Source: Candidatus Gastranaerophilales bacterium (GTDB lineage: Bacteria > Cyanobacteriota > Vampirovibrionia > Gastranaerophilales > Gastranaerophilaceae). From it: a stretch of DNA of 53,983 bases. Below the pieces are notes generated by a model, which was given only the letters and a program-made list of their open reading frames with translations, had not been told where the DNA came from and ran no database searches. The stretch lies in assembly GCA_944325655.1 (NCBI GenBank), contig CALVAW010000008.1:1-53983 (forward strand), read 5' to 3'. Numbering within the stretch: position 1 is the first letter of the stretch; every line of letters begins with the position of its first letter. Both the position numbers and the translations under genes were made by a program. Of the stretch, positions 12,059 through 46,014 are shown in pieces.

Positions 12059-12084
12059 TTTTTTCTCCAATTCAACTTTAAACT

Positions 12085-12173
12085 AAATAACACCTTCTAA
12101 ATCCCAAGAAGGTGTTATTTAATAAGAATTGAAAAAATCAAAACAACATCAAATAACTAACCCTCTTGGGATT
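12085..12173 (-). promoter_or_regulatory. attenuator-like leader: terminator hairpin with competing upstream strand
   Basis: On the minus strand a perfect 14-bp hairpin (12107-12120 with 12085-12098, loop 12099-12106) lies 15 bases before the GGAG of the downstream gene. An upstream segment (12160-12173) can pair over 14 positions, including one G-U, with 12100-12113. That stretch covers the loop and seven bases of the hairpin's first arm. The two folds exclude each other, as in transcription attenuators. The T-tract after the hairpin is poor, so it may instead simply terminate mutS. A possible promoter (TTAGCA, 17 bases, TATACA) lies upstream near 12190-12220. Confidence 0.5.
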
Positions 12174-12254
12174 ATATGATGGTGATTGATATGAAATGTA
12201 TAAAATAAAATGTCTTTTTTGCTAATCATAGAAATCATACTAACAGAAAAAAAT

Positions 12255-29900: not shown

Positions 29901-30304
29901 TTGGCAATATCAATATAACCAAATATTAAAGAAATAATATTGATGTCAGCATCAAAATCACTCAACGCAACAAAGTCTGAATTTTTTGTATACTTTAATT
30001 TTAAACTGTCGGCTTTTACATTAATATCAAATTTATAATTAGGTCTTACTTTTAAATTATCTATATCTAAAATTAATTTTGTATTTTTTGATAAATAATT
30101 ATTTAAAAATAATTCCGCGTTTTCTTCATTTAAAAATGCAGGCAAGAAAAACAAATAAGAAACATACAAAAGTAAAAATAAAGATAAAATAACCGTCAAA
30201 ACACTTTTAACAAAAACAGAATATTTCAAAAATGAAAATTCTCTTTTCTTAAAAATAAAATTTGCTACTCTTTTAATCCGACTTTTTTTCTTAAAATATA
30301 TCAT
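26936..30304 (-). CDS. AsmA/TamB-like giant envelope protein (first copy)
   Basis: 1122 aa. One membrane helix near the N-terminus (about 30-55), then over 1000 residues of repetitive beta-strand-rich sequence typical of the AsmA-like clan (AsmA, TamB, YhdP, YdbH). These proteins form a long hydrophobic groove across the periplasm and move phospholipids toward the outer membrane. The C-terminal region (about 928-1122, from DGYIKFNIDDGELSQFAKLE) is the AsmA_2-like end and matches the end of the second copy at 34491-38855. It starts 5 bases after exbD's stop, so it is co-translated with the tonB-exbB-exbD-exbD operon. This arrangement implies that an energised motor drives, or is regulated with, the bridge (inference). 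Confidence 0.82.
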   Translation of the reverse strand: MIYFKKKSRIKRVANFIFKKREFSFLKYSVFVKSVLTVILSLFLLLYVSYLFFLPAFLNEENAELFLNNYLSKNTKLILDIDNLKVRPNYKFDINVKADSLKLKYTKNSDFVALSDFDADINIISLIFGYIDIAKIKSSKFLVNVSFTKDNRYSCFDYFDLKILELNSKKSKFKLRNLNFYTDKFVFELYDENIREKFFINSEKLKISMLPAFDFKNRSYEISTKGVLKASDSKISDFNLKLNFKTKNDVIGRFNDILLKLNRNPLVYAREYGFYSRVGINLKINPSEKKFNIEGNVDLSDFSFCVNNMRLPKNSMRFVFKGDKAYSDCDFNFIKNQFIRIKSKMNMSKNKFIELTLNSNDINLADFKDILSVFYKILNVKFSSNEINLEGFASADLYLKSDFKTINSSGKFEIRNASVHHKKTGLTLKNINSNINLQNNKINIKDTSAFVDKSKFYLSGVIDEKTNLNLKVNSDTIDVANVINLIKSLPLISSFIPSLDDYVFKSGFVNIMADIKGSLKNPIINMNSRLENIRIYVKSLKTEIYSKNISIKASPDKNSIKDVFVIVSDSNIRYMKNNFYIKNIKMKLNESNVIIEKTAVNIDNIKGYLEGEIRNYKQKNYNAIIKISALIPSNNKYIVIKSQSNVAPKLNLELNVFKDKILINNSSIVLKDKKPIIISGSILNYTSQYPTLNAVKITSQDKIAFYLPQNLIGFDFLGSIVLNGRLDSPQIDGNINLYNVVSREYNLNIGDLLLNIKNSSAYINIVHGRIFGFDFDLVAQAKLLKDKLMVDFAQFNSTYINIDALNKYLKDNGNINIEVANFKGNIAVLEVMDMLLNSVYIEGSYKDNNIIADKFRADLFSGNVFGSFTYGIYSNKTNADIILKEINVRLLSNGIKEIKDLSIAATGRLSALIKADFSGFDFNTLLKTFDGYIKFNIDDGELSQFAKLERFLQAGNILSQSILKLTLNSTVSAITNQNTGDFKTIEGTVKIKNSNADVQYIKTQGSNMSLYMTGNFNLLTQNCNMNIYGRIPSSMVNILGPIGKFSTEQIVDKMSDDAKSIIKSITVSPLEKLLSDEIPEEYISKIPPLAYGVNVPVREFKVRIIGDPKNISSVRFFKWRKN

Positions 30305-30309
30305 TCTCT

Positions 30310-30693
30310 CTACATTTCAACAATTGAAATGCTTGTAACTCCTGCATTTCTGGCATTATCCATAAGACGCACCACGCTTTGATGGCTTGAATTGCCTGCT
30401 GCTTGAATTAAAATACCATCCGTATTAATTTTTGACTGTTCTTTAAGAACTTCAAGCAAATCCGTTTCTTGAACGGGTTGATTATTAACAATATACGAAT
30501 TATCTTCCGTAACTTGAACGGTAAGAATTTTTGCATCTTTATTTTGCTGATTTTCTTCAACATACTCGGGGACAGCAAGAGATAAACCTTGTTGATCCAA
30601 TATCGGAGCAATAACCATCATTAAAATTAACAAAACAAGAAAAATATCAGTTAAAGGCGTAATATTTATATCATTAAAAGTTTGTCTTTTCAT
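30310..30693 (-). CDS. exbD: ExbD/TolR-family motor protein (second copy)
   Basis: 127 aa. A short cytoplasmic tail (RQTFNDINITPLTD) leads into one membrane helix with the proton-relaying aspartate D16 (TPLTDIFLVLLI). The small periplasmic domain ends in VRLMDNARNAGVTSISIV. With ExbB it forms the proton channel that drives TonB. Its start overlaps the preceding exbD stop by one base (TAATG) and its stop is 5 bases before the AsmA-like start, showing tight coupling. Its tail and helix are nearly identical to the first exbD, while the periplasmic domain differs. The pair may form a heteromeric peptidoglycan or TonB-binding unit. Confidence 0.93.
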   Translation of the reverse strand: MKRQTFNDINITPLTDIFLVLLILMMVIAPILDQQGLSLAVPEYVEENQQNKDAKILTVQVTEDNSYIVNNQPVQETDLLEVLKEQSKINTDGILIQAAGNSSHQSVVRLMDNARNAGVTSISIVEM

Positions 30694-31151
30694 TAACCTT
30701 GCTCCTTGTTTTCTTCAAGTTCTTTTTGTTGCTTCCCGCTCAATGGTTCACCTGCAACTATTAATTTTTCAAATCCGGCATCTTGAGCAGCTTTCATGAC
30801 TTTCATAATTTCTGAACTTTTTGTATCTTTATCCGCTCTTACGACAACTTCCTTTTTTTCAACATTACTTATTAAAGAAAGTAATGATTCTGTAAGACTT
30901 TCCGGAGTTACCTTTGTTTCATTTACATAATAGCTTCCATCTCTAGTAATCGAGACAGTAGCATTTTTAGTTTCTATTGCAAGACCCGAATTAATCTCCG
31001 GCATTTTTATATTATTATCAACGGATTGAAAACTCGGCGCAATAACCATCATAATTATAAGCAACACGAGAAAAATATCAGTTAAGGGCGTGATATTAAT
31101 CTCATTAAATGTTTTCTTTTTGCCGTCTTCTTGCTGTATATTCGAATTCAT
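30693..31151 (-). CDS. exbD: ExbD/TolR-family motor protein (first copy)
   Basis: 152 aa. Tail KKTFNEINITPLTD, transmembrane helix 21-40 with the conserved D25, then the periplasmic ExbD fold (AIETKNATVSITRDGSYYVN, VVVRADKDTKSSEIMKVMKA) and a charged C-terminal extension of about 20 residues. A Shine-Dalgarno (GGAT) is present. It lies 15 bases after exbB and overlaps the second exbD by one base. Confidence 0.93.
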   Translation of the reverse strand: MNSNIQQEDGKKKTFNEINITPLTDIFLVLLIIMMVIAPSFQSVDNNIKMPEINSGLAIETKNATVSITRDGSYYVNETKVTPESLTESLLSLISNVEKKEVVVRADKDTKSSEIMKVMKAAQDAGFEKLIVAGEPLSGKQQKELEENKEQG

Positions 31152-31166
31152 TTTGTTATCCTAAAA

Positions 31167-31814
31167 CTAAAGAGCAATTGAACTGCTATTATCTACGTTA
31201 ACTTCTTCATCGGAATCAATAAAACTTAAAAATACAAGTTTAATTAGTTTAAAATCTGATTCAAAACGAGCAACAACTGTTTGAAAATAGTTAAACAATA
31301 CAACCGCAACAATTGCAACTCCAAGACCTAAAGCTGTAGCAATCAAAGCTGAAGCAATACCTGTTGCAACTGCAGCAGATTGATTACCTTGTGTTGCTAA
31401 ATCCTGAAATGTATATAAAATTCTGACAACAGTACCGAATAAACCCAAGAAAGGAGCAACACCGCCAATTGTTCCAAGAATTGTTAAATGGCGTTCAAGC
31501 TTCCTTACCGCAAGAGATGATGAAATATCATAAGCTCTGGAGAAACCGGCTTTCTGTTCGGTATAAATTCTTAACGCTTCATCAACCATTTCCGATATTA
31601 TACCGCCAAGTTGAACAGATATTCTCTGCGCAGCTCCGATATTATTCTTAACAAGAGCTTTTTGTAAACTTGGAATAAACTCCGATATGTTTCTTTCATT
31701 TTTTCTGTAATATGAAATTCTGTTAATTGCAACATATACAACCAATACAGAACAAATGAAAATCGGTGTTAAAACCAACCAATCCTGCGCAATTGCTGCT
31801 AACATTAAATCCAT
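31167..31814 (-). CDS. exbB: ExbB/TolQ-family proton channel protein
   Basis: 215 aa with three membrane helices (about 13-30, 110-135, 148-172). The MotA/TolQ/ExbB domain is clear: RKLERHLTILGTIGGVAPFL then GLFGTVVRILYTFQDLA, and ATGIASALIATALGLGVAI. It pairs with the ExbD aspartates to turn the proton gradient into movement of TonB. Shine-Dalgarno GAGGAT. Located between tonB and exbD in one operon. Confidence 0.95.
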   Translation of the reverse strand: MDLMLAAIAQDWLVLTPIFICSVLVVYVAINRISYYRKNERNISEFIPSLQKALVKNNIGAAQRISVQLGGIISEMVDEALRIYTEQKAGFSRAYDISSSLAVRKLERHLTILGTIGGVAPFLGLFGTVVRILYTFQDLATQGNQSAAVATGIASALIATALGLGVAIVAVVLFNYFQTVVARFESDFKLIKLVFLSFIDSDEEVNVDNSSSIAL

Positions 31815-31839
31815 TTTTTTATCCTCATTTTTCTATTAT

Positions 31840-33036
31840 TTACCTTAAAACACTATTTAATACATTATAATCAAATGTAAATTCTATTGGCACCGACTGT
31901 CCTTTAAACTCTGGAGGTAATGGTCTGAAGGGTGCAGTCAATTCAATTGCACTCATTGCTGCCCTATCTGCCAGAGGTACCCCTGAAGACTTTGTAACCC
32001 TACGGGATAACAATCTGCCGTCTCTGCCGATTGTAAAAGTAATTACAACTCGTTTTGAACTGTCACCCTTAGGAGGAGACCAATTTCTCTTTATTCTTTG
32101 TTCCAAATCTCTCATGTAAGGTCCCCAATTTGGTTGACGTATTGCATCAATCCCCGGGGCACCGTTAGGATTTCCGGGGCTCGGATTTCCGCCGGAACCA
32201 TATCCGCCTGAAGAACCCCTGCTTGCATATCTGCTTCCGGATGAACCCGAAGATCCTCCTCTTGATGAAGATGAACCTGCTGAACTAAACTTTGGAGCAG
32301 GTGAAGATGATCCGCCCGACGAAGACCCGCCCAAGCTTCCCGATGTTGCAGGAGGCCTGTATGTAGTACCGACCGGGGCTTTACTCGGAGCAACCGGAAC
32401 AGTAAAAGGACTCTTTGGAGCCGTGGCAATTCTTGGTGCAGAAGGAGCCTTTGGAGCAACGGAAGGTTTTGCCTGAGGTTTATAAGCCCCCGGAGCCTTG
32501 ACCGGAGTCGGTTTTGATACCGGTTTTTGTGCTACAACAGGCTTTTGAACAGGTTTAGCAACAGGCTTTTGAACAGGTTTCGTTACAGTTTTTTGAACCT
32601 GTTTTTGAGGTACATTCGCAACCTTCGGTTGAGTCTTTTGAACTGTTTTAGGTTTGGAAGGAGCTGCTTTTGCAGGGCTCGGTTCTGAAACCGCACGTCT
32701 AGGATCATGCTTGCCGCCTGCTCTTGAATCTCTATCTGACCTTATTTTTGTATTTTTATTTATAGGAGGTTTGGATTCATTTTGAACCAATTTAAACTCC
32801 ACATCTCTATTTGGCAGCTCAGGTTTTGGCAAATGCGGAAACACAAGCCCCATCAAAGATGTTAAAACAATCATTAAAGAAACAAAGAAAACATGAAACG
32901 CTACAGAATAAGCTATACCCTTTATAGGTCCTATTTCATCTTTCGTCGTGAAAAAATTAGGCAGCCTCTTCTTTGCCGTTATTTGCTCTTCAACTATCGA
33001 ATTTTGTAAATCAAATCTGTTTCTAATTTGTGCCAT
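31840..33036 (-). CDS. tonB: TonB-family energy transducer
   Basis: 398 aa. A 39-residue cytoplasmic tail is followed by one membrane helix (about 40-67). A periplasm-spanning linker has Lys/Pro repeats (for example QKPVAKPVQKPV) and then a Ser/Gly-rich stretch. The TonB C-terminal domain is at about 300-398 (PYMRDLEQRIKRNWSPPKG, VVITFTIGRDGRLLS, then ADRAAMSAIELTAPFRPLPP). It links the ExbB/ExbD motor to outer-membrane partners. No TonB-dependent receptor gene is in the window. The C-terminal domain also resembles TolA, so a Tol-Pal-like role is possible. First gene of tonB-exbB-exbD-exbD-asmA. The Shine-Dalgarno is weak (GGA 12 bases upstream). Confidence 0.92.
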   Translation of the reverse strand: MAQIRNRFDLQNSIVEEQITAKKRLPNFFTTKDEIGPIKGIAYSVAFHVFFVSLMIVLTSLMGLVFPHLPKPELPNRDVEFKLVQNESKPPINKNTKIRSDRDSRAGGKHDPRRAVSEPSPAKAAPSKPKTVQKTQPKVANVPQKQVQKTVTKPVQKPVAKPVQKPVVAQKPVSKPTPVKAPGAYKPQAKPSVAPKAPSAPRIATAPKSPFTVPVAPSKAPVGTTYRPPATSGSLGGSSSGGSSSPAPKFSSAGSSSSRGGSSGSSGSRYASRGSSGGYGSGGNPSPGNPNGAPGIDAIRQPNWGPYMRDLEQRIKRNWSPPKGDSSKRVVITFTIGRDGRLLSRRVTKSSGVPLADRAAMSAIELTAPFRPLPPEFKGQSVPIEFTFDYNVLNSVLR

Positions 33037-33105
33037 AATTTGTTTTGTTCCAAGGTAAATTATTATTTACATAAAAATTTTTATAAATTACCCGAAAGTA
33101 TATAC

Positions 33106-33798
33106 TTACTGAGCAGTTATTGTAATTGGCTGGTCAAAATACAGGTTAATTTGACTGTTAGCCGGAATTACAATATTTTCTCCTTTGTCAATTGTTCTTT
33201 TAATAAGACCTAATCCTGCACCGACCGCAGTACCATATACAGCGCCGCGACCGACCGAGCCTCCTGATAGAGCACCCATTGCAGTTCCCAAGGCAGCACC
33301 TGAACCTGCCCCGATTGCTGTATCTTTGATATATTCCTTTGCACTATCCGCAGTAGTTCCGCCCTTAAGCACGCCGGTAGAATCCGTAGTAGCAATAACA
33401 GCGCTTATAGGTATTATATTATTATAAGGTGTTCTAATTGTAGTGAACCTTATTTGCATTTTTGCATTCCTGTTTGCAAAACTTGCCTTTTTATTTTCTG
33501 TAACAGTACCCATGATAGTACTTCCCGCTGCGGCTATTACCTGTCCGTTATATATAAAATCTTCGGTCAAAACCGCATTAACACTTTGTCCCACTACCGC
33601 ACTCAAAGAATTAATTTCTTGTGATAAAACAGCACTACATGTAATACCCGCAGGGACAAACAAAGCATACCCCTGTAAATTTGAATTATTTTGCTGGGTC
33701 GGTGCAGTATAATTATAATTTCCCGCAGCTAAACAAGAAGCACCTAAAAACATACCGCAGGTTAAAAATACAGCAATAAATTTATTTTTATTTATCAT
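33106..33798 (-). CDS. exported glycine-zipper protein with a VirB10/TrbI-like layout
   Basis: 230 aa. Signal peptide residues 1-25 (FIAVFLTCGMFLGASCLAAG). The body has a pattern of VPAG...VVGQSVNAVLTEDF, then QVIAAAGSTIMGTV, which is reminiscent of the beta-barrel of TrbI/VirB10 secretion proteins, but the similarity is only in pattern. Residues 162-198 are a glycine zipper (GxxxG/AxxxG) that could insert in a membrane. The end returns to the barrel pattern (VIPANSQINLYFDQPITI). Shine-Dalgarno GGAGAGGAA and its own promoter at 33827-33854. It lies 69 bases before tonB and may be co-transcribed with it. The protein at 33860-34402 has a related layout. Function unknown. Confidence 0.8.
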   Translation of the reverse strand: MINKNKFIAVFLTCGMFLGASCLAAGNYNYTAPTQQNNSNLQGYALFVPAGITCSAVLSQEINSLSAVVGQSVNAVLTEDFIYNGQVIAAAGSTIMGTVTENKKASFANRNAKMQIRFTTIRTPYNNIIPISAVIATTDSTGVLKGGTTADSAKEYIKDTAIGAGSGAALGTAMGALSGGSVGRGAVYGTAVGAGLGLIKRTIDKGENIVIPANSQINLYFDQPITITAQ

Positions 33799-34490: not shown

Positions 34491-37400
34491 ATGTCAAAAG
34501 AAAACAAAACTAAATTTAATCCCTTAACCTTAATTAAAAACACAGCACTGGCAGCTATAATTGTTTTTATAATTTTTATTTTTTCAATTTTCTTACTAAA
34601 ATATACCCTTTCATATTCTACAATTGAAAAATACTTTTACGGCTTCACGGGACTCAAGTTAGAGTTAATAAATCCAAAAACCACTTTTGACTACAAATTT
34701 AACATCAACACAAAAGCGCAATATATAAATATATATGATAAGAACAAAAACACAAAATTTATATCGCTGCAAAATCCCGAAATATCCTTCAAGCCGCTGG
34801 GTTTATTATTCAAAAAAGCAAATTTTAAAAAATTTAGTGCAAAAAATATAACCGTAAATATAAAAAGAAACCAAAAAGGTCAAATCGATCTTATACAAAA
34901 TTTAAAAATAAAAGATTACAGTCTGATAAAAAATAACACTCTTACGAAATTAAACAGCGATATTAATTTTATCAGAATAAATTTTAAAGATGAATATAAA
35001 ATTAAAAGCGAAATAACACTTAATTTAACAAATACCGACATTAAAATTTCAAAAAAAGATAAAAGTCTTTATTTCTATCAAACAGGTACAATAGACACAT
35101 TTTTTAATTCAAAGAAACAAACGGCAAATTTATCCTTAAGTGTTGCATCTAAATATCCTCTAAATAATTTTAACTCTGGCGATTTATCCTTAAACATTAA
35201 CATTGACAATATAAATCTATATATACTTAATGATTTTGCTAAAAAATATATATCAAAAGATATTAAAACATTTGAAGGTTTAACTGATGTACATATAAAA
35301 ACAAACGAAGACAATAGCACACAAAATCTCATAATTAAAATAATAAAACCCAAACTCACACTAAATAATAAAAAAATTATTTCACCATTTAAAAAAGATA
35401 TAACAATTACATCGGATTTTATTCCAAATAAAGATGAAATAAAAATAATAAGCTTAAAAGCTAATGCGGATAAACTTTCTGTTTCAAGTGAAGGTACGAT
35501 AATTAAACCTTTTAGCAAAAAAAGAGGCTTAGATCTGAGTATAAAAATCTCGGATACAGAATTAAATAATTTCTTATATTTTCTGCCGGACAATTTAATA
35601 TATTATCGTCCGCAAGGAATACCGACTCTTAAAAAATCAAATTTTCACGGGATAATAAACGGTACATTAAATTTAAAATTATTTTCTCTCGATATAAGCG
35701 GAAATTTGAAAATTTCAAATGTACACATTCCGAATTATCCTAAGCCCTTTATAGAAAACGATGTAAATTTATTTTTCATGAAAGATAAAATGAGAGTATA
35801 TACAAGAGTATACACTCCCGATAATGAATATGTGGTTATAGACGGGGTCTCCAATCTGGATGATTCTTTATACGGAAAATACAGCGTAAAATCAACATCT
35901 AAAATAGATTTATCCTTTGCAAAACTATATCTTGTCCCAATACAGCAAATAATAGGTTTCAACATCGGACCCGTTCCGATAATGAACATAAGCGGCTGGG
36001 GCAATATAGATATTAGAACTCAAGGAACAATAAAAGACGCTCAAATATTCGGAGAATTTCAAGCCCACAATGCAAGCGCTGAAATCGAGGGTTTAAATGC
36101 AAAACTTACCGACGGTGATTGCAAGTTGATTTTCGACAACAGAAATTTAATTTTTAAAAAAATACACGGAAAAATGAACGAAGCCGATTTCACCCTAACG
36201 GGAATAGGCGACACCAAAGGAAATGTTGATTTAAAAACAGAAATAAAAAATGCAAGAACACACAACATCTTAAACATTTTTAATAATAGTATAATAACCA
36301 AACCATATACAAAACTAACCGAAAATATAGCGGCAACATCAGGTCAAATTAATGCAAATATCAATCTGAAAGGCACAATAGATAACTGGGAAGACAAAAA
36401 CTTTTTATCAAAATTGCCGCTTTCTGGAAAAATAAACTTTCAAAACAACAAATTCATACTTAAAAATAAACTATCAATACAAAAAATTAACGGCACACTT
36501 AATTTTGGATCCAAACAAGACGGGGATTTTAGTCTGTATGTAAACAATTCCAAAATAAATGCATCTTTTGAATCAAAAGATAATTTGGAAAAAATCTCGA
36601 AAGGTGAATTATTTGAATTCAAAAGTCGTATCTATTCCGACAAATTTGCTTTTTATGACATTTTTAAAGAACTCAGTAAAAATCAAAAATACATAAACAT
36701 ACTGTCAAATCTTGAAAAAGTGGATTTTTATACCAAATTCAATATAAAATCAGAAGGCAAAATCTCCTTAAATGAAATAAATCTTGAAAAAATAAAAAAC
36801 TACGGATACATAACCGGTTTGAATGATTCAACAAAACCAAATATAAAATTCAATTCCGGAATTATCAAAATAGACGAAAATAAAATTATATTTGACAATT
36901 TTAACACATCACTGCTCAGCGGCAATATTAAAGCAAACGGGTATATACAAAATTTTCTAACTAAAAACCCTAATGCAGACTTAATCGTTATTCTTAATAA
37001 TTTAAACCTTGCCGGATTAAATCAAATTTTACCTAAAACCAATATCGGATACGGCAAATTAAAAAACGGAAAAATTATAGCAAAAAACAATAATCTAAAA
37101 TTAAACTCCATAAGTATAGACTATGAAAATATGCCTATATATCTTAATGCGGACATAAAAGACATATTCAAATCAAAAAGCCTTGAAGCAAATTTTTCAA
37201 CAATACTAAATGAACAATCAACGGATAGTTTAATAAATCCTTATTTAACATATCCTATTAAAGTAAAAGGGGAAATACCAGTAAAAGGATTTTTTAAAGG
37301 CAAACTTGATAAATACACAATTGATATAACGGCAACCATACCGAAAAATTCAGATATTTCATTTAGCGGAGCAAATCTTGGCGACACAAACCACAAAAGA

Positions 37401-38855
37401 GAATTAGCAGGTAAAATTGAAGTATCAGACAACAAAGCAAACATCAATAATCTTAAGCTGGTTAAATACATTGCAAATCAAAACGGAAAAGTAAATCCAA
37501 TAACCGCACTTAAAGCAAACGGTAAAATTATCCAAAATCAAAACAATCTTATTTATGATAATCTCAAGATAACAACCCTATCTCCTATTAATGTGAGGAT
37601 TTTAAATCTCATATTTAAAAAATCTATATTAAAACAAGGTAATTTTGAATGCGATATAGTATTAAAAGGAAACACAAAAGAACCGAACATTAACGGAAAA
37701 GTATATTTACAAGACTTGGATATCCCTTTATACGATACCCAAATTAACAATATAAAAATAAATATTTCAAACAAATATATAGAAGGAGAAATATTAGCAA
37801 GAAACAATCAAAGTGATGTCAAAATGCTGCTAAAAGCACAAAACAAACTCACTGCCCCATATATCATAGATGACGTAAACATACAATCAAATAATCTTAA
37901 TATAAATGAAATTTTATCAAGTGTTGCACCGGTTCAATCAAAAACCGACATAAATAAAAAACCCGAATTATTAATAAAACCGGAAGACATTATAGTTAAA
38001 AACGGTATTTTTAATTTCAAAGAAGTATCCTTTGAAAAAATCAAAGCGCAAAATTTAGAAGGAAACTTTGACTATAAAGACAATATTTTTAATCTTAAAA
38101 ACGCAAATCTCGATATAGCTGAAGGAAAATTTAACGCAAACGGTAAGTATGCACTTAAAACGACAAAATTAAATCTTAGCGCTAAAATGGAAAATTGTAA
38201 TTCAAATACTCTAACAAAAGAATTTTTAAATTTATCTGATCAAATTTTTGGTAAAATAAACGGATCGATTATTCTTTCGGGCAAGCATTTAAATACACCC
38301 GAGGCAATTAAAAACATTAATTCAAAAGTTGAATTCTCCGTAAACAACGGAAAAATGCCAAAACTTGGTTCGCTTGAATATTTATTAAGAGCCGGTAATC
38401 TTATAAAAAACGGGATTTTAGGTCTTTCCTTAAACAACCTTATCCAAGTTTTAACTCCATATAAAACAGGAGAATTTGAAAAAATAACAGGTACACTTTC
38501 AATCGACAACGGAGAAATAGAAAATCTTGAAATAATGTCACAAGGTAAAAATTTAAGCATGTATCTGGCAGGCAACTACAGCATACTTGAAAATTATGCA
38601 GATATAAAAATATACGGAAAGCTATCGCAAAATATTTCAAACGCCTTGGGAGCGTTGGGCAATGCTTCTTTAAGTCAATTTATAAATTCTATTACATCAA
38701 GAAAAAATAAATCCGAGATGAATGCGGAACTAAAGGAAAATATTAATAAAATACCCGCAATTGAAATAGAAAATCCCGAACCAAGATATTTTAAAGTAAA
38801 AGTCTTGGGAGATATCAATAAAGAAAATTATATAAAGAACTTCTCATGGATTTAA
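34491..38855 (+). CDS. AsmA/TamB-like giant envelope protein (second copy)
   Basis: 1454 aa. Membrane helix at about 18-38 followed by a Lys-rich, beta-strand-rich body with repeated patterns such as VNIDGDI-like alternation, typical of AsmA-clan lipid bridges. The final 180 residues (from about 1277, VEFSVNNGKMPKLGSLEYLL) align with the end of the first copy: ...RAGNL...LSLNNLIQVL...TGEFEKITGTLSIDNGEIENLEIMSQGKNLSMYLAGNY. A mid-region IGFNIGPVPIMNISGWGNID resembles AsmA/DUF3971-type strands. It is monocistronic, ends at a bidirectional terminator and is divergent from the exported 180-aa protein. Transport of lipid or other envelope material to the outer membrane is inferred from the clan. 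Confidence 0.82.
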   Translation: MSKENKTKFNPLTLIKNTALAAIIVFIIFIFSIFLLKYTLSYSTIEKYFYGFTGLKLELINPKTTFDYKFNINTKAQYINIYDKNKNTKFISLQNPEISFKPLGLLFKKANFKKFSAKNITVNIKRNQKGQIDLIQNLKIKDYSLIKNNTLTKLNSDINFIRINFKDEYKIKSEITLNLTNTDIKISKKDKSLYFYQTGTIDTFFNSKKQTANLSLSVASKYPLNNFNSGDLSLNINIDNINLYILNDFAKKYISKDIKTFEGLTDVHIKTNEDNSTQNLIIKIIKPKLTLNNKKIISPFKKDITITSDFIPNKDEIKIISLKANADKLSVSSEGTIIKPFSKKRGLDLSIKISDTELNNFLYFLPDNLIYYRPQGIPTLKKSNFHGIINGTLNLKLFSLDISGNLKISNVHIPNYPKPFIENDVNLFFMKDKMRVYTRVYTPDNEYVVIDGVSNLDDSLYGKYSVKSTSKIDLSFAKLYLVPIQQIIGFNIGPVPIMNISGWGNIDIRTQGTIKDAQIFGEFQAHNASAEIEGLNAKLTDGDCKLIFDNRNLIFKKIHGKMNEADFTLTGIGDTKGNVDLKTEIKNARTHNILNIFNNSIITKPYTKLTENIAATSGQINANINLKGTIDNWEDKNFLSKLPLSGKINFQNNKFILKNKLSIQKINGTLNFGSKQDGDFSLYVNNSKINASFESKDNLEKISKGELFEFKSRIYSDKFAFYDIFKELSKNQKYINILSNLEKVDFYTKFNIKSEGKISLNEINLEKIKNYGYITGLNDSTKPNIKFNSGIIKIDENKIIFDNFNTSLLSGNIKANGYIQNFLTKNPNADLIVILNNLNLAGLNQILPKTNIGYGKLKNGKIIAKNNNLKLNSISIDYENMPIYLNADIKDIFKSKSLEANFSTILNEQSTDSLINPYLTYPIKVKGEIPVKGFFKGKLDKYTIDITATIPKNSDISFSGANLGDTNHKRELAGKIEVSDNKANINNLKLVKYIANQNGKVNPITALKANGKIIQNQNNLIYDNLKITTLSPINVRILNLIFKKSILKQGNFECDIVLKGNTKEPNINGKVYLQDLDIPLYDTQINNIKINISNKYIEGEILARNNQSDVKMLLKAQNKLTAPYIIDDVNIQSNNLNINEILSSVAPVQSKTDINKKPELLIKPEDIIVKNGIFNFKEVSFEKIKAQNLEGNFDYKDNIFNLKNANLDIAEGKFNANGKYALKTTKLNLSAKMENCNSNTLTKEFLNLSDQIFGKINGSIILSGKHLNTPEAIKNINSKVEFSVNNGKMPKLGSLEYLLRAGNLIKNGILGLSLNNLIQVLTPYKTGEFEKITGTLSIDNGEIENLEIMSQGKNLSMYLAGNYSILENYADIKIYGKLSQNISNALGALGNASLSQFINSITSRKNKSEMNAELKENINKIPAIEIENPEPRYFKVKVLGDINKENYIKNFSWI

Positions 38856-38919: not shown

Positions 38920-39936
38920 TTATAGCTTTGAAGCAACCATCAATGTAGTTTCAGCTAATCTTGTTGAATAACCCATTTCGTTATCATACCAAGAAACAAC
39001 TTTAACCATATTATCACCCATTGTCATAGTTAAAGCAGCATCAACAGTTGATGATTGAGAAGTTCCGATAAAATCGGAAGATACAAGCGGAGCTTCTTCA
39101 TAGCATAAAATGCCTTTTAATTCAGCGGATTCGCTTGCTTCTTTTAATGCAGCATTAACTGCTTCTGCTGTTACAGGTTTTTCTGTTTCAAATACAACGT
39201 CAACAACTGAAACATCAGGAGTAGGAACACGCATAGCAAAACCGTTCAATTTACCTTTTAATTCAGGGATTACAAGAGCTACTGCACGTGCTGCGCCGGT
39301 AGTTGTAGGAACAATATTCAAAGCGCCTGCTCTTGCACGACGAGGATCTTTATGTCCTGCATCAAGAATTCTTTGATCGCCTGTGTATGAGTGAACGGTA
39401 GTCATCAAACCTTTAACTATACCGAATTTTTCCATAACAACTTTTGCAACCGGAGCCAAGCAGTTTGTTGTACAAGAAGCCATAGAAATTACATCATGTT
39501 TTGCAGGGTCATATTCATTTCCGTTTACACCAAGAACGATTGTCTTGTCTTCATTTTTAGCCGGAGCTGAAATAATAACTTTCTTAGCACCTGCATCAAT
39601 ATGAGCTCTTGCTTTTGTAGCATCAGTGTAGAAACCGGTTGATTCAACAACAACTTCCACTCCTAATTTTGCCCAAGGCAATTGAGCAGGGTCTTTTTCA
39701 GCAAACATTAAGATTTTTTTACCGTTGATGATAATTCCGTCTTCTGCTGCTTCAACAGTACCGTCGAATTTACCCATAACAGAGTCATATTTAAAAACAT
39801 GAGCTGCATCTGCAGGTTTTAAACCCGGGTCATTAATTGCAACATAATCAATTTTATCAAAAATACCTTCTCTGATAGCAGCACGAAGAGTGTTTCTTCC
39901 GATTCTGCCAAATCCGTTAATTGCGACTTTTCTCAT
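38920..39936 (-). CDS. gap: glyceraldehyde-3-phosphate dehydrogenase (type I)
   Basis: 338 aa, the standard length. It converts glyceraldehyde 3-phosphate to 1,3-bisphosphoglycerate in glycolysis or the reverse. The NAD-binding N-terminus is [16 protein letters not shown], with D36 favouring NAD. The active site is [12 protein letters not shown] with nucleophile C155 and H182 (TVHSYTGDQ). The S-loop [20 protein letters not shown] and the C-terminal [13 protein letters not shown] are complete. Shine-Dalgarno AAGGAGAG and a good promoter upstream. Monocistronic. Confidence 0.98.
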
Positions 39937-39976
39937 ATAGTCTCTCCTTCTAAAATGTAATTAATACTACACATTA

Positions 39977-40004
39977 GTTATACTACAAAAAAAATCACTT
40001 GCAA
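39977..40004 (-). promoter_or_regulatory. gap promoter
   Basis: On the minus strand TTGCAA (39999-40004), 16-base spacer, TATAAC (39977-39982). The leader is about 35 bases with a strong Shine-Dalgarno. Confidence 0.6.
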
Positions 40005-40071
40005 GAAATTTAAAAAGTTAAGAAAGTAAACAAATAAAACTAAATTAAATTTTGCATGGTAATATTTTAGT

Positions 40072-40953
40072 ATGATGAGAAAGTTAGTATCATTCATTTT
40101 AATTTTCTTCGGTTTTAATTCCTGCATAGCCGCTTTAGCACAGGATGTTATTAAACTTGATAAAGTACAGGATTTTGATATTCAATACAAAGAACAAGTT
40201 CAAACCCTAAAAGGCTCTCTTTTTATTGATGACACTTTAGAAGCACAAAACCAAATAAACGAACAACAAAAAGCAGACATGGAAGATATTGAAAATCTGT
40301 GGAATGCAACTGTTGAAAACAATCCCATGATAGGCTTCTGCTTAAAAAAGCTTGCAATACCTGCAGAACAAAGGAGAATACATTCTTCAATGCTGGCTAA
40401 ATCTATGAGTGCAATTATCTCAGGAGCTGCTCTACTTCCTTCTTTTTTGGGAATGAATTACGGTATCCAATCAGGAACATACGCAGCCGGCAGATTGGCT
40501 ACAAGTCTTATAAATAAAGAAAACAACGAAAAATTACAAAATCCTTCCATAACAGATACTGAAGCTATAGAACTTGCAAGTCTCATAGAAGATTTGCAAG
40601 ATGAAATAATTGTTGATTATTTTAAATATAAAGGAGCATTAACCAAATTAAAAAAATGCAGAGAACAACTTTTGCTACATAATAAAAACTACTCGGAAGC
40701 ACTTGAAAAAAATGATTCTCTCGATATAACAATAGCTTCAGCTCAATGGGAAGATGAATTAATAGAAGAATACAGGCTTAAACAAGAAGTAAAAAAATAT
40801 CAACTTGCGCTCACAAGATTAGCAGGAAAAAAAACCGTTGATAATTTAAATGTCGCACAATTTGATTTAACAACACAAAATGTAAACAAAAAAGACCTAA
40901 ACTATGAAAAAAAACTAATAGAAGTATCTGCAATAAAGGAGGATAAAAAATGA
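40072..40953 (+). CDS. exported coiled-coil protein, tandem paralogue A
   Basis: 293 aa. Signal peptide about 1-24 (LVSFILIFFGFNSCIAALAQ). A conserved core follows: ENLWNATVENNPMIGFCLKKLAIP, then a hydrophobic Gly/Ala-rich segment (about 115-145, SAIISGAALLPSFLGMN). The last 130 residues are a long helical coiled coil (DLQDEIIVDYFKYKGALTKL, then LALTRLAGKK). The coiled coil, ending in a L-x-x-L-x-G motif, resembles part of a TolC/OEP periplasmic hairpin, but the family is not identified. The neighbour at 40950 has the same plan, is the same length, and overlaps by four bases (ATGA). The start codon is 6 bases after TAATAT, so it may be leaderless. Confidence 0.82.
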   Translation: MMRKLVSFILIFFGFNSCIAALAQDVIKLDKVQDFDIQYKEQVQTLKGSLFIDDTLEAQNQINEQQKADMEDIENLWNATVENNPMIGFCLKKLAIPAEQRRIHSSMLAKSMSAIISGAALLPSFLGMNYGIQSGTYAAGRLATSLINKENNEKLQNPSITDTEAIELASLIEDLQDEIIVDYFKYKGALTKLKKCREQLLLHNKNYSEALEKNDSLDITIASAQWEDELIEEYRLKQEVKKYQLALTRLAGKKTVDNLNVAQFDLTTQNVNKKDLNYEKKLIEVSAIKEDKK

Positions 40954-41831
40954 AAAAAATCCTCTTTATTACATTAATCTTACTTTCTCCCCTCGCTTTT
41001 TGCGAAAATTTATCCGACCTGACATCTCCAAAACCGTTCTTAGGAAGAATGTCAAACTCAGATAAACCCGAATTAAACACAATAAAAAAAGAAGAAAAAA
41101 AACAGCAAAAAGCAGAAATAACTTCAAATCAAAATGAAAATCAAACAATACAAGAGCAAACAACAAATTCAATAAATTCAAACTGGGCGGATTTGAGTCT
41201 TAAAAAACTTGCAAACGACGTAAGTTATGAGCTGGAAATGGATTCAAGCAAAATTAATGCCGATTTAGCTGTTCTTTGGAACGCAACCACAATGCGCTCA
41301 GAAACTATGAAATACACTATATACAAGCTTTCTAATCCCGATGAAGATAAACCTAATGAATCTACTTTGAAAAAAATATTAAGACCGATTGCAAATATCT
41401 CAACTCTTGCGGGAGCAAGTGTTGCAGGAGACCCGTTTATGGCTACCGGAGCTTTAATCGGAGGCGGACTTGTTAATGCATTTATGAAAGATGATAAAGA
41501 GGTAAACTATAGATTTTCAAAGGTATCAGATGCCGATATGGTTCTTTTAGTCAGAAAAATTGATGATTTACAAAAAAAATTGCTAAATTTATACGTAGAT
41601 TACAGAACAAAAGAAAAACTATATAATATGGCTAAAGAAAATTTTGAAAAAAGAGAACAGAACTATATAAATTCTCAAAAAAAATCAAAGGAAGAACTGA
41701 TTATAGCCGATGTATATTATAGGACAGCTAAAACACAAGCTCAAAGAGCAGAAGATGAATATATGACTTCTCGAGCAATTTTGGAAAATCTCGTAGGAAC
41801 CGAAGCGATAAAAAAAATTGACGAAGAATAA
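40950..41831 (+). CDS. exported coiled-coil protein, tandem paralogue B
   Basis: 293 aa. Signal peptide 1-18 (KKILFITLILLSPLAFC). A Gln/Asn/Lys-rich linker follows, then the shared core DLAVLWNATTMRSETMKYTIYKLSNP, a Gly/Ala segment (STLAGASVAGDPFMATGALIGGGL) and a C-terminal coiled coil (VRKIDDLQKKLLNLYVDYRT, then RAILENLVGTEAIKKI). It is clearly homologous to the gene before it (LWNAT, the K-L-x-x-P site, the glycine-rich segment and the coiled coil are in the same order). A perfect Shine-Dalgarno (AAGGAGG) lies in the upstream gene and ATGA overlaps. Probably a two-component envelope assembly. Function unknown. Confidence 0.83.
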   Translation: MKKILFITLILLSPLAFCENLSDLTSPKPFLGRMSNSDKPELNTIKKEEKKQQKAEITSNQNENQTIQEQTTNSINSNWADLSLKKLANDVSYELEMDSSKINADLAVLWNATTMRSETMKYTIYKLSNPDEDKPNESTLKKILRPIANISTLAGASVAGDPFMATGALIGGGLVNAFMKDDKEVNYRFSKVSDADMVLLVRKIDDLQKKLLNLYVDYRTKEKLYNMAKENFEKREQNYINSQKKSKEELIIADVYYRTAKTQAQRAEDEYMTSRAILENLVGTEAIKKIDEE

Positions 41832-41942
41832 TCACAAACAAAAATCTGAATAATATCTTAAAATAAATAAATTACAATATAAGTTTAAATAAAGCAAAAA
41901 CAACTGCAGCAAGTTTTAATTTAGCACAATGAAATGTTTTAA

Positions 41943-41979
41943 ATAAAAAAAAGCTATTGTACATAGTATACAATAGGCT
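41943..41979 (-). terminator. orphan minus-strand terminator-like hairpin
   Basis: Stem AGC(bulge)TATTGTA/TACAATAGCT (about 41952-41961 with 41969-41979, one bulged base) followed on the minus strand by eight T's. No minus-strand gene lies upstream of it: the next gene to the right, at 42118, points the other way. It therefore suggests an unannotated short minus-strand transcript from the 286-base gap. The rest of that gap (41832-42117) holds only the promoter for 42118. A 13-codon ORF at 41989 does not look real. Confidence 0.45.
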
Positions 41980-42083
41980 CTAATAAGGATGACAATAAAG
42001 TTATATGGTGTGTATATTATTTACGTTTAATCAACTTACATTTTTTTCTTCGTACCACCAAAGTTAAATCTTTAACAATTATT

Positions 42084-42111
42084 TTTAAATCTCATACATT
42101 TGATGTATAAT
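42084..42111 (+). promoter_or_regulatory. promoter of the glycosyltransferase operon, leaderless
   Basis: TTTAAA (42084-42089), 16-base spacer, TATAAT (42106-42111), 6 bases, ATG at 42118. There is no Shine-Dalgarno. Confidence 0.55.
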
Positions 42112-42117
42112 CGCAGT

Positions 42118-43059
42118 ATGAAATTGGTAGTACAAATTCCATGTTTTAACGAAGAAGCTAATATAGAGAGCGTTTTAAAAAATATACCGAATAATATTGA
42201 TAATATCGACGAAATAAAAATCATAGTACTTGACGACGGCTCGACCGACGAAACCCCTCAAATTGCAAAAAAGATGGGGGCTAAGGTTATTAGCTCAAAC
42301 AACAAACTGGGACTTGCCAACACTTTTAAAACCGGCATAATACAAGCACTTGAAGAAAATGCCGACATACTCGTTAATATTGACGGAGACAATCAATATA
42401 ACCCAAAAGACATAAAAAAACTCATTGAACCTATACTGCAAAACTCCTGTGATATAGTAATAGGAACTCGTCCGATAGATAAAATCAAAACTTTTTCCAT
42501 TTTTAAAAAAATTCTACAAAAACTGGGTTCCTATATAGTTAAAGTAATATCACAAATTGATATTCAAGATGCAGCAAGCGGTTATAGGGCATATTCAAAA
42601 AAGGCTCTTTTAAACATAAATATTTTTAACTCTTTTTCACATACTATTGAAACAATAATACAAGCAAAAAACAAAAATCTTATCATAAAAAATGTAAATA
42701 TCAGAGTAAACCCACAAAAAAACAGAAAATCCAAACTTTTTAAAAATAATTTTGACTACATATTTAAACAAGCAAAGACTACAATCAGATTTTTTATAAT
42801 ATACAGACCTGTAAAATTTTTTACAACTCTTGCAAACATATTTCTTTTAACAGGAATGATACTTGGCATCAGATTTATATATTATTACATAATGCATGAC
42901 GGTTCAGGACACGTGCAATCACTTATATTATGTTCAATAGTAATTATTTTAGCATTTCTTCTCTATATGATAGCAATTTTAGGAGACTTATTCACCATAA
43001 ATCGCAAACTTTTAGAGGATATTCAACTTGAATTGAGACAAAAAAAATACAAAAAATAA
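42118..43059 (+). CDS. family 2 glycosyltransferase with two C-terminal membrane helices
   Basis: 313 aa from the ATG at 42118 (KLVVQIPCFNEEANIESVL). Upstream in-frame TTG and ATG codons at 42100 and 42103 lie on top of the -10 and are unlikely starts. GT-A fold: the nucleotide-binding DDG at 39-41 (VLDDGSTDE) and the metal-binding DGDNQ at 89-93, then the acceptor-side region ASGYRAYSKKAL. Two C-terminal helices (about 230-252, 265-290) follow, as in dolichol/undecaprenyl-phosphate mannosyl- or glucosyltransferases (DPM1/GtrB/ArnC type). It most likely loads a sugar on a lipid carrier for envelope glycan. First of a four-gene cluster with rfaE1, DUF4330 and the IctB-like gene. Confidence 0.9.
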   Translation: MKLVVQIPCFNEEANIESVLKNIPNNIDNIDEIKIIVLDDGSTDETPQIAKKMGAKVISSNNKLGLANTFKTGIIQALEENADILVNIDGDNQYNPKDIKKLIEPILQNSCDIVIGTRPIDKIKTFSIFKKILQKLGSYIVKVISQIDIQDAASGYRAYSKKALLNINIFNSFSHTIETIIQAKNKNLIIKNVNIRVNPQKNRKSKLFKNNFDYIFKQAKTTIRFFIIYRPVKFFTTLANIFLLTGMILGIRFIYYYIMHDGSGHVQSLILCSIVIILAFLLYMIAILGDLFTINRKLLEDIQLELRQKKYKK

Positions 43060-43094
43060 TTTTTATGTTATTATATAATGTTGTCGAGGATTAA

Positions 43095-44096
43095 ATGAAA
43101 AAAGAAGAACTAATTAAATGCATCGATAAGCTTGAAACTCCGAAGATATTAATAATCGGCGATTTCGCTTTAGATGAAATGGTATACGGAACAACGGAAA
43201 GAATCTCAAGAGAAGCTCCTGTTTTAATTCTTGAGCACTATGAAACAAAAAAAATTCTCGGTGCAGCATCAAATGCAAGCAATAACGTTTCTTCGCTAAA
43301 TAAAGGCAAAGCTGCTGCTTTAGGGGTTTACGGCGATGATTATTACGGAAGAGAACTAATAAAAATACTAAACGAAAAAAATATAGACACATCCTTAATG
43401 GTAATGGATGAAACAAGAAAAACAACAACCAAAACAAGAATTTCAGGCTCCTGCAACCAAAGCATAACACAACAAATAGTAAGAATAGACAGGCAAACAA
43501 AAACACCTTTGAATGAAAAAACCGAGCAAAAAATAATAGAAAATATAAAAAAATCCGTTAAAAATTTTGACGGAATAATATTATCAGATTATCATTTAGG
43601 TTGTTTAACGGAAAATATAGTAAAATCTGCAATAGATGAAGCTAAAAAATATAACAAAATAATAGTTGCGGATATACAAAAAAATATGGAAAAATACAAA
43701 GGAGTAACCGCAATCACTCCAAACCAACCGGACACGGAAAAACAGGTAGGCTTTTTTATAAAAGATGACGATACCCTAAAAAAAGCGGGAGAAAAATTAT
43801 TAAACGACTTAAAACTTGAAAAAGTTTTACTTACCAGAGGTGAAAACGGAATGGCACTTTTTGAAAAGAAAGAAGACAAAATTGATTTTCAAAAAGTTTC
43901 TGCTTTTAACAAAAAGGAAGTTTTTGACGTAACCGGTGCAGGAGATACGGTTGTTGCAACCTTCACGCTTGGACTTTGCGCAGGCTTGTCAGCGCAAACA
44001 GCAATGTATCTCGGTAACTTAGCAGCAAGTATAGTTATAAGATACTTTGGATGTCATACGGTTACAACCGATGATTTAAAACAAGAACTCACATAA
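43095..44096 (+). CDS. rfaE1: D-glycero-beta-D-manno-heptose-7-phosphate kinase
   Basis: 333 aa PfkB/ribokinase-family kinase. The RfaE1/HldE-type N-terminus is GDFALDEMVYGTTERISREA, then PGGAANVA is replaced by LGAASNASNNV. The C-terminal anion-hole and catalytic motif is VTGAGDTVVA, with D284. It phosphorylates heptose 7-phosphate on the way to ADP-heptose for lipopolysaccharide cores. The adenylyltransferase half (RfaE2) is absent, so it is the single-domain form. A -10 (TATAAT at 43074-43079) places the transcript start only about 9 bases upstream, with GAGG at its tip, so a second promoter inside the operon is likely. Another sugar kinase role is possible. Confidence 0.85.
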   Translation: MKKEELIKCIDKLETPKILIIGDFALDEMVYGTTERISREAPVLILEHYETKKILGAASNASNNVSSLNKGKAAALGVYGDDYYGRELIKILNEKNIDTSLMVMDETRKTTTKTRISGSCNQSITQQIVRIDRQTKTPLNEKTEQKIIENIKKSVKNFDGIILSDYHLGCLTENIVKSAIDEAKKYNKIIVADIQKNMEKYKGVTAITPNQPDTEKQVGFFIKDDDTLKKAGEKLLNDLKLEKVLLTRGENGMALFEKKEDKIDFQKVSAFNKKEVFDVTGAGDTVVATFTLGLCAGLSAQTAMYLGNLAASIVIRYFGCHTVTTDDLKQELT

Positions 44097-44111
44097 AAAA
44101 AAGGAAAGCTT

Positions 44112-44681
44112 ATGAATTTTATTAAAAAACTCAGACCTTTTGATTATTTGATTATTGCAATCATACTTTTTATCGGACTAATAGGTTTTTTAACGTTTAG
44201 CGGAAAAAGAGCAACATCTTCAAATCAAATTGAAGCAACAACAAACATAGAACTTGAAGTTTATTTAAGAGGAGTCAATGTAACATCAGATGAGCCTTTA
44301 TTTAAAAAGGACGATGAAACATTTATTACAATAAGAAATGTTCCATACACAAAATTAAAAATTAAAGATGTTAAATATGACAAAAGAAAAATCATGATTC
44401 CCACAATTAACTCAAAAAAACCGTACATCACGGTCAATGACGATACAACACCTCATCAATATGATTATTTGGTAAAAATAGTTGATACTGCAAAAATTAC
44501 AAAAGACGGCGATGCGGTTGTAGGAGGAAATAAAGTTAAAATAGGACTTCCGATAACACTCGAAGGTGCAAAGTACAAACTAAACGGGGTTATTTCAAAT
44601 GTTATGATAAGTCCCGAACCACAAAACAACGCCCATGAAGATTTAGACAAGCATACAAAATTAAATCAAGATGTTCAATAA
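44112..44681 (+). CDS. DUF4330 membrane-anchored protein
   Basis: 189 aa. Basic N-terminus, one helix (about 14-30, IIAIILFIGLIGFL), then a beta-rich periplasmic part. The features NIELEVYLRGVNVTSDEP, DYLVKIVDTAKITKDGDAVV and NKVKIGLPITLEG are those of DUF4330, a family known mainly from Cyanobacteria and some Firmicutes. No enzyme motif is visible. Shine-Dalgarno AAGGAAAG. Its 3' end overlaps the IctB-like gene by 11 bases, implying coupled translation and a joint role in envelope polysaccharide handling. Confidence 0.85.
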   Translation: MNFIKKLRPFDYLIIAIILFIGLIGFLTFSGKRATSSNQIEATTNIELEVYLRGVNVTSDEPLFKKDDETFITIRNVPYTKLKIKDVKYDKRKIMIPTINSKKPYITVNDDTTPHQYDYLVKIVDTAKITKDGDAVVGGNKVKIGLPITLEGAKYKLNGVISNVMISPEPQNNAHEDLDKHTKLNQDVQ

Positions 44682-46014
44682 TATCAAAAATTTTATTAAC
44701 AACAGCCTTTTTATGGACAACATTGATAACATAGCTTTTTTAATTTTGTTATCGATGCTTTGTTCTGCAATAATTTTTTCTTCAGATATTATGGGTATTT
44801 TAGCTCTGTTATTTTCAATTTTGATAATATTTAAAACTATTTTTAAAAAAAACACCGAATATCAATTTTTAAATTACGAGAAAGCCCTTTTTGTATTTTT
44901 TCTTTTTGTAACCTTAAGTCTTTTCGGTTCAACTTTATTTAAACTTAGTCTTCATGGTTATATTAAAACAGTCATATATTTATTATTTTTTTATTGCGCA
45001 AATATTTTCTTCAGTGAAAATAAAAATAAAATATTGCCGATAATCATTTTTGTTTGTGCATTGATGAGCTTTGAATCAATTATAGCAATTCTTCAAAATT
45101 CATCAGATATTGCTGAAATATCGGGTTGGCAAGATATTACAAGCATAAACCCCGAAGAAATAATCTCAAGAGCATACGGAACACTACAACCCTATAACCC
45201 TAATCTTTTAGCGGGATACTTACTTTGCGGACTTTCCTCTTTTGTTTTTGTAATATTAAAAAACATAAAAAAAGGAAAAAGAAAATATGCGCTTGCATTT
45301 ATGTTCCTTATGATAATAAATATTGTTGCAATAATAGATACCGGATGCAGAGGAGCATATCTCGGATTTTTACTCTTCTTTTCAATATTATTTTTTGCAC
45401 TTATTTATTACGCCAAAAAAACTCTGGGCGGCTTTTCAAAAATTAAAAAAAGATATAAAAATATAACTCTTTTTGGAATTATCGGCTTATTTTTATTCAT
45501 AATAACAAATCCTGCACTAATAAAAAGAGTAGAATCAATTTTTGCCCTTAGAGCCGACAGCTCAATTTCCTTTAGATTAAATGTATATGAATCAGCAATC
45601 AGAATGTTTATGGATAATCCGTTTTTAGGTATAGGCGTAGGTAACCAAAACTTCAGAGAAATATACGGTCTTTATATGAAAACAGGCTTTGACGCTTTAG
45701 GTTCATACTGCGTACCGCTTGAAATTGCTGTTGAAAGCGGAATTTTTGCCCTGATTGCATTTATTGTTTTTCTTATTCTGACAATAAAAACTTGTTTGAA
45801 ATATTGTCTTGATAATGAAAAAGAAATTGATATAAAAATCCTATCTTTATGCATCATCCTTATGATAGCTGCAACAATGGGTCATGGACTTTTTGATACA
45901 ATATGGTACAGACCGCAAGTACAGCTTTTATTCTGGACAAATATTGCAATGTTAAAAACCGCAAATCAATTTAACAAGCTTCCAAGCAAAACAGCTCCAA
46001 GCATGCCGGAGTAA
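44671..46014 (+). CDS. IctB-like / O-antigen ligase family membrane protein
   Basis: 447 aa, about 11 membrane helices. Family stretches: SRAYGTLQPYNPNLLAGYLL, DTGCRGAYLGFLLFFS, SISFRLNVYESAIRMFMDNP, GIGVGNQNFREIYGLY and the C-terminal GHGLFDTIWYRPQVQLLFW. These are the hallmarks of cyanobacterial IctB, once proposed to move bicarbonate but belonging to the Wzy/WaaL O-antigen polymerase/ligase superfamily. Since this organism has no carbon-fixation genes in view and sits next to glycan genes, ligation of a lipid-linked glycan is more likely. The start is inside the DUF4330 gene. Its last 49 bases overlap the end of the convergent nanK-like gene. Confidence 0.88.
   Translation: MFNNIKNFINNSLFMDNIDNIAFLILLSMLCSAIIFSSDIMGILALLFSILIIFKTIFKKNTEYQFLNYEKALFVFFLFVTLSLFGSTLFKLSLHGYIKTVIYLLFFYCANIFFSENKNKILPIIIFVCALMSFESIIAILQNSSDIAEISGWQDITSINPEEIISRAYGTLQPYNPNLLAGYLLCGLSSFVFVILKNIKKGKRKYALAFMFLMIINIVAIIDTGCRGAYLGFLLFFSILFFALIYYAKKTLGGFSKIKKRYKNITLFGIIGLFLFIITNPALIKRVESIFALRADSSISFRLNVYESAIRMFMDNPFLGIGVGNQNFREIYGLYMKTGFDALGSYCVPLEIAVESGIFALIAFIVFLILTIKTCLKYCLDNEKEIDIKILSLCIILMIAATMGHGLFDTIWYRPQVQLLFWTNIAMLKTANQFNKLPSKTAPSMPE

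Follow-up and report, generated by a model that had tools for sequence, protein, structure and literature searches.

Melainabacteria, whose class name is Vampirovibrionia, are non-photosynthetic relatives of cyanobacteria from the gut and the environment, few of which have been cultured. The window analyzed here, a 53,983-nucleotide stretch of one contig from a Candidatus Gastranaerophilales bacterium, encodes two adjacent proteins of 293 aa each, which the initial annotation read as an obligate pair of exported coiled-coil paralogues and perhaps as kin of the outer-membrane efflux hairpins. The locus raises the question of what family the two proteins belong to, whether they form one structure, and whether they are related to those hairpins.

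Two Overlapping Genes Encode Divergent Paralogues

Gene A (40072..40953, + strand) and gene B (40950..41831, + strand) were both recovered as ORFs of 293 aa for putative exported proteins, the first and the second half of the pair, and the start of B lies on the stop of A in a 4-base ATGA overlap (40950..40953, + strand). BLASTP aligned the two proteins at an E-value of 6e-8 with 20% identity over 185 columns, and the profile vs. profile comparison gave a 99.5% probability, confirming the proposed paralogy; judged by their sequences, A and B are divergent paralogues. In all of 50 A/B pairs both ORFs were on one strand, and in 32 of them the overlap was exactly 4 bases, with starts called mechanically. 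The equal length of A and B, to which attention had been drawn, recurred in only 2 of the 50 pairs, so it was attributed to chance rather than to a family property and was rejected as a constraint. The called lengths ranged from 263 to 442 aa for A, the lowest value being a gene cut by the contig start, and from 270 to 470 aa for B. A scan of positions 39900-42150 found 14 promoter-like sites vs. 9.8 expected and no terminator-like sites.

The Family Is Class-Wide and Class-Restricted

A profile search for the family that had been centred on the LWNAT motif revealed a class-wide and class-restricted family. The A-family profile found a match in 229 of the 240 genomes of the class, and in 194 of the 195 good ones, leaving 11 without a match in the class search. 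In a phylum-wide sample of 292 genomes, 136 gave a match, every one within the class, while a profile of the single-gene form described below matched 135 of the 292, again all within the class, and missed G231, a genome of the window's family. When 58 relatives were searched, 52 matched A and 52 matched B (41 of 43 among good genomes); neither was found in six (G007, G017, G026, G030, G038, and G053), two of which, G007 and G030, belong to the 43 good ones.

As far as it was searched, the family is undescribed, as had been suggested, since no Pfam or NCBIfam model matched A or B above its curated cut-off. The best Pfam E-value among 65 family members was 0.0044, the best PHROGs E-value was 0.008 (three proteins), and profile searches against solved structures reached 0.29 to 0.33 at best. 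The Foldseek searches with the models of A and B gave no match at E ≤ 0.001. Among the paper titles listed on the outer membrane of Melainabacteria and Gastranaerophilales and on TolC duplication, none concerns the A/B family.

The Family Occurs as Single, Paired, and Fused Genes

Three gene forms were found, a single gene, an adjacent pair, and one fused ORF. Asked whether only one of the two genes is conserved, the 58 relatives gave both halves in 47 of the 52 matching genomes, eight of these 47 in fused form. Four more (G031, G048, G050, and G055) showed B alone adjoining a contig end, and in G031 the frame closing at the ATGA overlap stays open as far as the contig end, as expected if an A gene had been truncated there. 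The fifth, G057, is of another family and carries a single gene. Within the order, the pair form was present in families f1, f2, f4, f6, and f7, and f5 was represented by one genome, without a match. The fused form was one ORF of 521-573 aa in eight genomes of family f3, and in the six such ORFs that were fetched the A profile matched best on the first half and the B profile on the second. Outside the order, pairs were found in f9, f14, and f15 (nine fetched loci), and a single gene of 308-492 aa, on which the A and B profiles match the same place, in f8 and f10-f13 (22 fetched loci); the single-form families were also checked genome-wide in searches covering 47 genomes of the class. The single gene occurs twice, at separate places, in at least two genomes of f8 (G091 and G188). 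Thus, the claim of obligate pairing holds inside the order, where the four genomes showing B alone have it at a contig end, but it fails for the five single-gene families, and because the single form suffices in f8 and f10-f13, the core activity does not depend on pairing.

A tree was built from 83 domains; its root is not fixed, the program warned of long branches, and the f15 rows are unsure. It separated three groups: the single form (100/99), A together with the first fused halves (89/83), and B together with the second ones (100/99). The fused halves nested in A and in B as one group each (98/89 and 99/85, respectively), and the rows were grouped largely by family. This grouping indicates that the step between the single and paired forms was one duplication or one loss and that the f3 form arose by one fusion, and the latter argues for A and B as one physical unit. 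Based on that fusion, and on the co-occurrence of A and B in every matching genome of the order whose contig reaches far enough, we are modestly inclined to regard them as two halves of one hetero-oligomeric cell-envelope structure, of which we infer the heteromer, the oligomer, the membrane, and the function.

Each Half Is Predicted to Combine an N-Terminal Helix, a Gly/Ala Segment, and a Long α-Hairpin

Each half is predicted to consist of an export-like N-terminus, an N-terminal helix, a 30-35-residue uncharged Gly/Ala segment, and a long α-hairpin. Both N-termini appear export-like, consistent with the annotated export, as judged by hydropathy alone (19-mers with alignment-averaged KD of 2.04 and 1.53). 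The LWNAT core lies at residues 76-80 of A (40297..40311, + strand) and 109-113 of B (41274..41288, + strand). It is present in both proteins as had been described, but its five letters vary: over the 21 rows of the A family W never changes, conservation of L and T is at least 90%, and N and A are variable, while over the 22 rows of the B family L and W alone reach 90%. The full motif was therefore rejected as a family signature, and what is kept is the Trp with a few neighbours. The N-terminal helix carries this Trp, invariant in A and nearly so in B, with KLAIP or KLSNP next in the two proteins of the window.

The Gly/Ala-rich hydrophobic segment, at residues 104-146 of A (40381..40509, + strand) and 137-182 of B (41358..41495, + strand), proved to be a real feature, being free of majority-charged columns at residues 111-140 of A and 146-180 of B. 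It is mildly hydrophobic, its best 19-mers having KD values of 1.15-1.27, and shows helical periodicity, with low pLDDT in the models. The β moment exceeded the α moment in 5 of 50 Gly/Ala windows of A, 12 of 48 of B, and 7 of 59 of the single form, compared with 29 of 48 windows of true OEP half-repeats in the same test; these low counts favour helices over TolC-like strands in the segment.

The long C-terminal coiled coil was reproduced by AlphaFold2, which predicted a long α-hairpin at residues 162-251 of A (40555..40824, + strand; 10-residue mean pLDDT 55-81) with arms 162-213 and 216-251, and at residues 194-282 of B (41529..41795, + strand; 10-residue mean pLDDT 65-94) with arms 194-242 and 247-282. 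The models are weak overall, with a mean pLDDT of 58 for A and 65 for B, and poor within the Gly/Ala segment; no β-strand was predicted in either, with pLDDT low in that segment.

Similarity to OEP/TolC Proteins Stays Below Threshold

The anatomy resembles that of the outer-membrane OEP/OMF proteins (TolC, OprM, and CusC; PF02321), each half of which has the same order of a helix, a ~45-residue membrane segment, and a long α-hairpin ending in a conserved Gly, and in which two related halves likewise make one unit. According to PMC8277102, OMF protomers contain pseudosymmetric repeats that arose from gene duplication. A, B, and the single form have one repeat each, and two per chain occur only in the fused f3 proteins; the long coiled-coil α-hairpin per repeat, an OEP feature, is present in A and B according to AlphaFold2. 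The A/B family differs in that its halves are on separate genes, its profile match is sub-threshold, and its membrane segment is without β periodicity or predicted strands. A rival explanation, which we consider unlikely, is that A and B are true, very divergent OEP/TolC members, each gene being one OEP repeat that keeps the outer-membrane β-strands and A3B3 being an ordinary outer-membrane channel.

Pfam OEP scored 8.6 bits on B vs. the curated cut-off of 22, and 15.4 bits in the genome search, so that the gathering cut-off was not reached, and it gave no match on A. At E-values up to 1, OEP was the commonest weak Pfam match of the B members (4 of 22, best 0.0044), a point in favour of kinship, and was found in 0 of 21 A members; in the single form, it was absent from the best 25 of 34 Pfam families. 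The alignment of the joint family profile with the OEP half-repeat ran from one end to the other, at 90.9% over 175 of 187 columns, far above the maximum of 2.4% in 30 shuffles and the 0.1% of the reversed profile. However, an equal 90.9% against OEP was obtained for the HlyD-type adaptor family, through 104 columns of the hairpin; of 50 neighbour families it was the only one to do so (next among the best 15 rows, 6.1%). By pieces, the hairpin matched the OEP hairpin at 73.7%, compared with 88.7% for the HlyD-type family, and is therefore not OEP-specific. The N-terminal piece was in register with the OEP N-terminus at 7.2%, its score of 17.4 exceeding the maximum of 14.1 in 30 shuffles, in support of kinship, while the middle piece showed no similarity (0.1%), which, together with its lacking β periodicity and any modelled strand, speaks against OEP membership.

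Against 17 whole OEP sequences, the family gave 1.2-42.4% over 16-87 columns, and none of the 17 was among the best 25 other matches of the family profile. In hmmsearch at E-values up to 10, the OEP half profile matched 39 of 129 family proteins and, among 1119 other genes, 35, of which two were clearly OEPs and one was an adaptor, and the Foldseek lists contained CusC (TMq 0.27, E 0.75) and a NodT-type channel (TMq 0.27, E 0.56); both results were weighed in favour of kinship. Against it, the window's genome already holds eight proteins with two OEP repeats each, which indicates that the A/B pair does not replace TolC. Moreover, the HlyD-type adaptor at positions 11868-12989 of locus L091 owes to its hairpin a Pfam OEP score above the cut-off (22.9 vs. 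22 bits), so OEP calls on hairpins should be made with caution, and a hairpin alone can explain the score of the A/B family. As a separate observation, the OEP repeats of locus L230 (G049:C38:21336-22520) lie in a 1467-aa open frame, far above the other OEP frames listed.

Since the HlyD-type control reached the same probability, we dropped the claim of OEP homology from profile comparison and do not claim such homology here; the suggested kinship with outer-membrane efflux hairpins found no firm support, the OEP signal being sub-threshold and HlyD-type adaptors matching OEP equally or better. The membrane part of A and B probably differs from that of OEP.

Comparison With Other Coiled-Coil Proteins

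HlyD-type adaptors (PF16576 and PF13437) have a long coiled-coil α-hairpin as well, and VIA listed HlyD with A, and AcrA, MexA, EmrA-type proteins, and HlyD with B, at scores in the noise range for long helices. They differ in that no HlyD or lipoyl Pfam match was found among 21 A and 22 B members; the HlyD, CusB, and biotinyl-lipoyl families did not appear in the Pfam matches of A and B at E-values up to 10 after the HMMER filters, so the lipoyl/barrel-sandwich domain of the adaptors was not recognized in either protein. The HlyD-type profile compared with the A/B family at 4.3%.

The best structural matches of B in VIA were F-BAR domains (Z 10.4, 114 residues, 4.3 Å), and those of A were a mixture of helical bundles, although a Z below ~13 for long helices may reflect a common arrangement only. 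Such matches, together with Gly/Ala 19-mers that are at best weakly hydrophobic for a transmembrane helix, would fit a soluble or peripheral periplasmic scaffold, F-BAR-like or spacer-like, whose coiled coils tether or shape membranes and which forms no channel. The scores are in the range just cautioned against, and a plain spacer leaves the conserved uncharged Gly/Ala segment unexplained, so we think such a scaffold improbable, to about the same degree as OEP membership.

AhlC was also among the top VIA matches of A (Z 9.1, 119 residues, rmsd 5.6 Å). ClyA-type pore formers combine a hydrophobic head with a coiled coil, a plan similar to that of A and B, and the ClyA-type and tripartite α-pore formers share with them a hydrophobic helical head within an elongated bundle of helices. 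A and B could accordingly be taken for a helical pore-forming pair acting on other cells. But the family is class-wide and near-universal, and its tree rows follow families largely, while toxins are usually patchy, and the structural scores are at noise level for helical bundles; a toxin pair is thus very hard to credit.

Neighbouring Genes Are Conserved Only Within Subclades

No neighbour of the family was conserved class-wide; common neighbours were found within subclades only. Near-universality in the class without class-wide neighbours suggests a general envelope role over that of an accessory of one operon.

Two ExbD proteins, an ExbB, a TonB-type protein, and a weakly matching Gly-zipper protein, as identified by Pfam, lie in a row at 30310-33798 (- strand), 6-10 kb from the A/B pair, and in 7 of 9 f8 loci proteins of the same BLAST clusters as the TonB-type and Gly-zipper ones were found near the single gene. 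Among the matches listed for the 58 relatives, however, the Gly-zipper protein was within ~11 kb on the same contig only in G000, G001, G005, G014, and G021 of the genus; in G057 the linked copy was not the best match, and some contigs were too short to show linkage. This TonB/ExbB/ExbD and Gly-zipper operon was set aside as a functional clue because of its weak linkage across the 58 relatives. Directly 3′ of the single gene, an S49 peptidase was identified by Pfam in two loci (L217, 8377-9369; L220, 10050-11054), and members of its BLAST cluster are neighbours of the single gene in 7 of the 9 loci of f8 and in the two of f13.

Several other genes of the window were recorded. A 1454-aa protein (34491-38855, + strand) had no Pfam match at E-values up to 0.01 and is in appearance what we take to be AsmA/TamB-like. 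A 1122-aa protein (26936-30304, - strand) had a weak YhdP/DUF748 match and is also AsmA/TamB-like in appearance. At 24488-25696 (- strand), a single protein of 402 aa combines VKOR with a DsbA-like thioredoxin domain, and after the pair, at 42100-46014 (+ strand), a glycosyltransferase family 2, a PfkB kinase, a DUF4330, and an O-antigen-ligase-like protein follow in a row.

A Candidate Two-Part Envelope Structure

Under the favoured reading of A and B as halves of one envelope structure, the two proteins would alternate around a ring or bundle, like the two repeats of a TolC protomer. Their Gly/Ala segments would enter or abut a membrane as short helices, the outer membrane being the likeliest, and the coiled-coil hairpins would reach into the periplasm, where they would form either a conduit or a scaffold to which partners dock. 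In a bolder version, which we consider quite improbable, the single protein would assemble as a homohexamer, a 'half-TolC', the pair as an (AB)3 ring of alternating subunits, and the fused protein as a trimer, with Gly/Ala helices and no β-barrel crossing the outer membrane as an α-helical conduit core to Melainabacteria; nature would thereby have repeated the origin of TolC-type channels using another membrane part.

Melainabacteria are described in PMC4040986 as having a gene set for an envelope of the Gram-negative type, with homologues of som porins. A near-universal, class-restricted, and nameless exported family would be a marker of Melainabacteria and probably a core part of their envelope. 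Further, its single, paired, and fused forms offer a direct test of the route from a homomer through a heteromer to a fused pseudo-symmetric protomer, which for TolC is usually only inferred.
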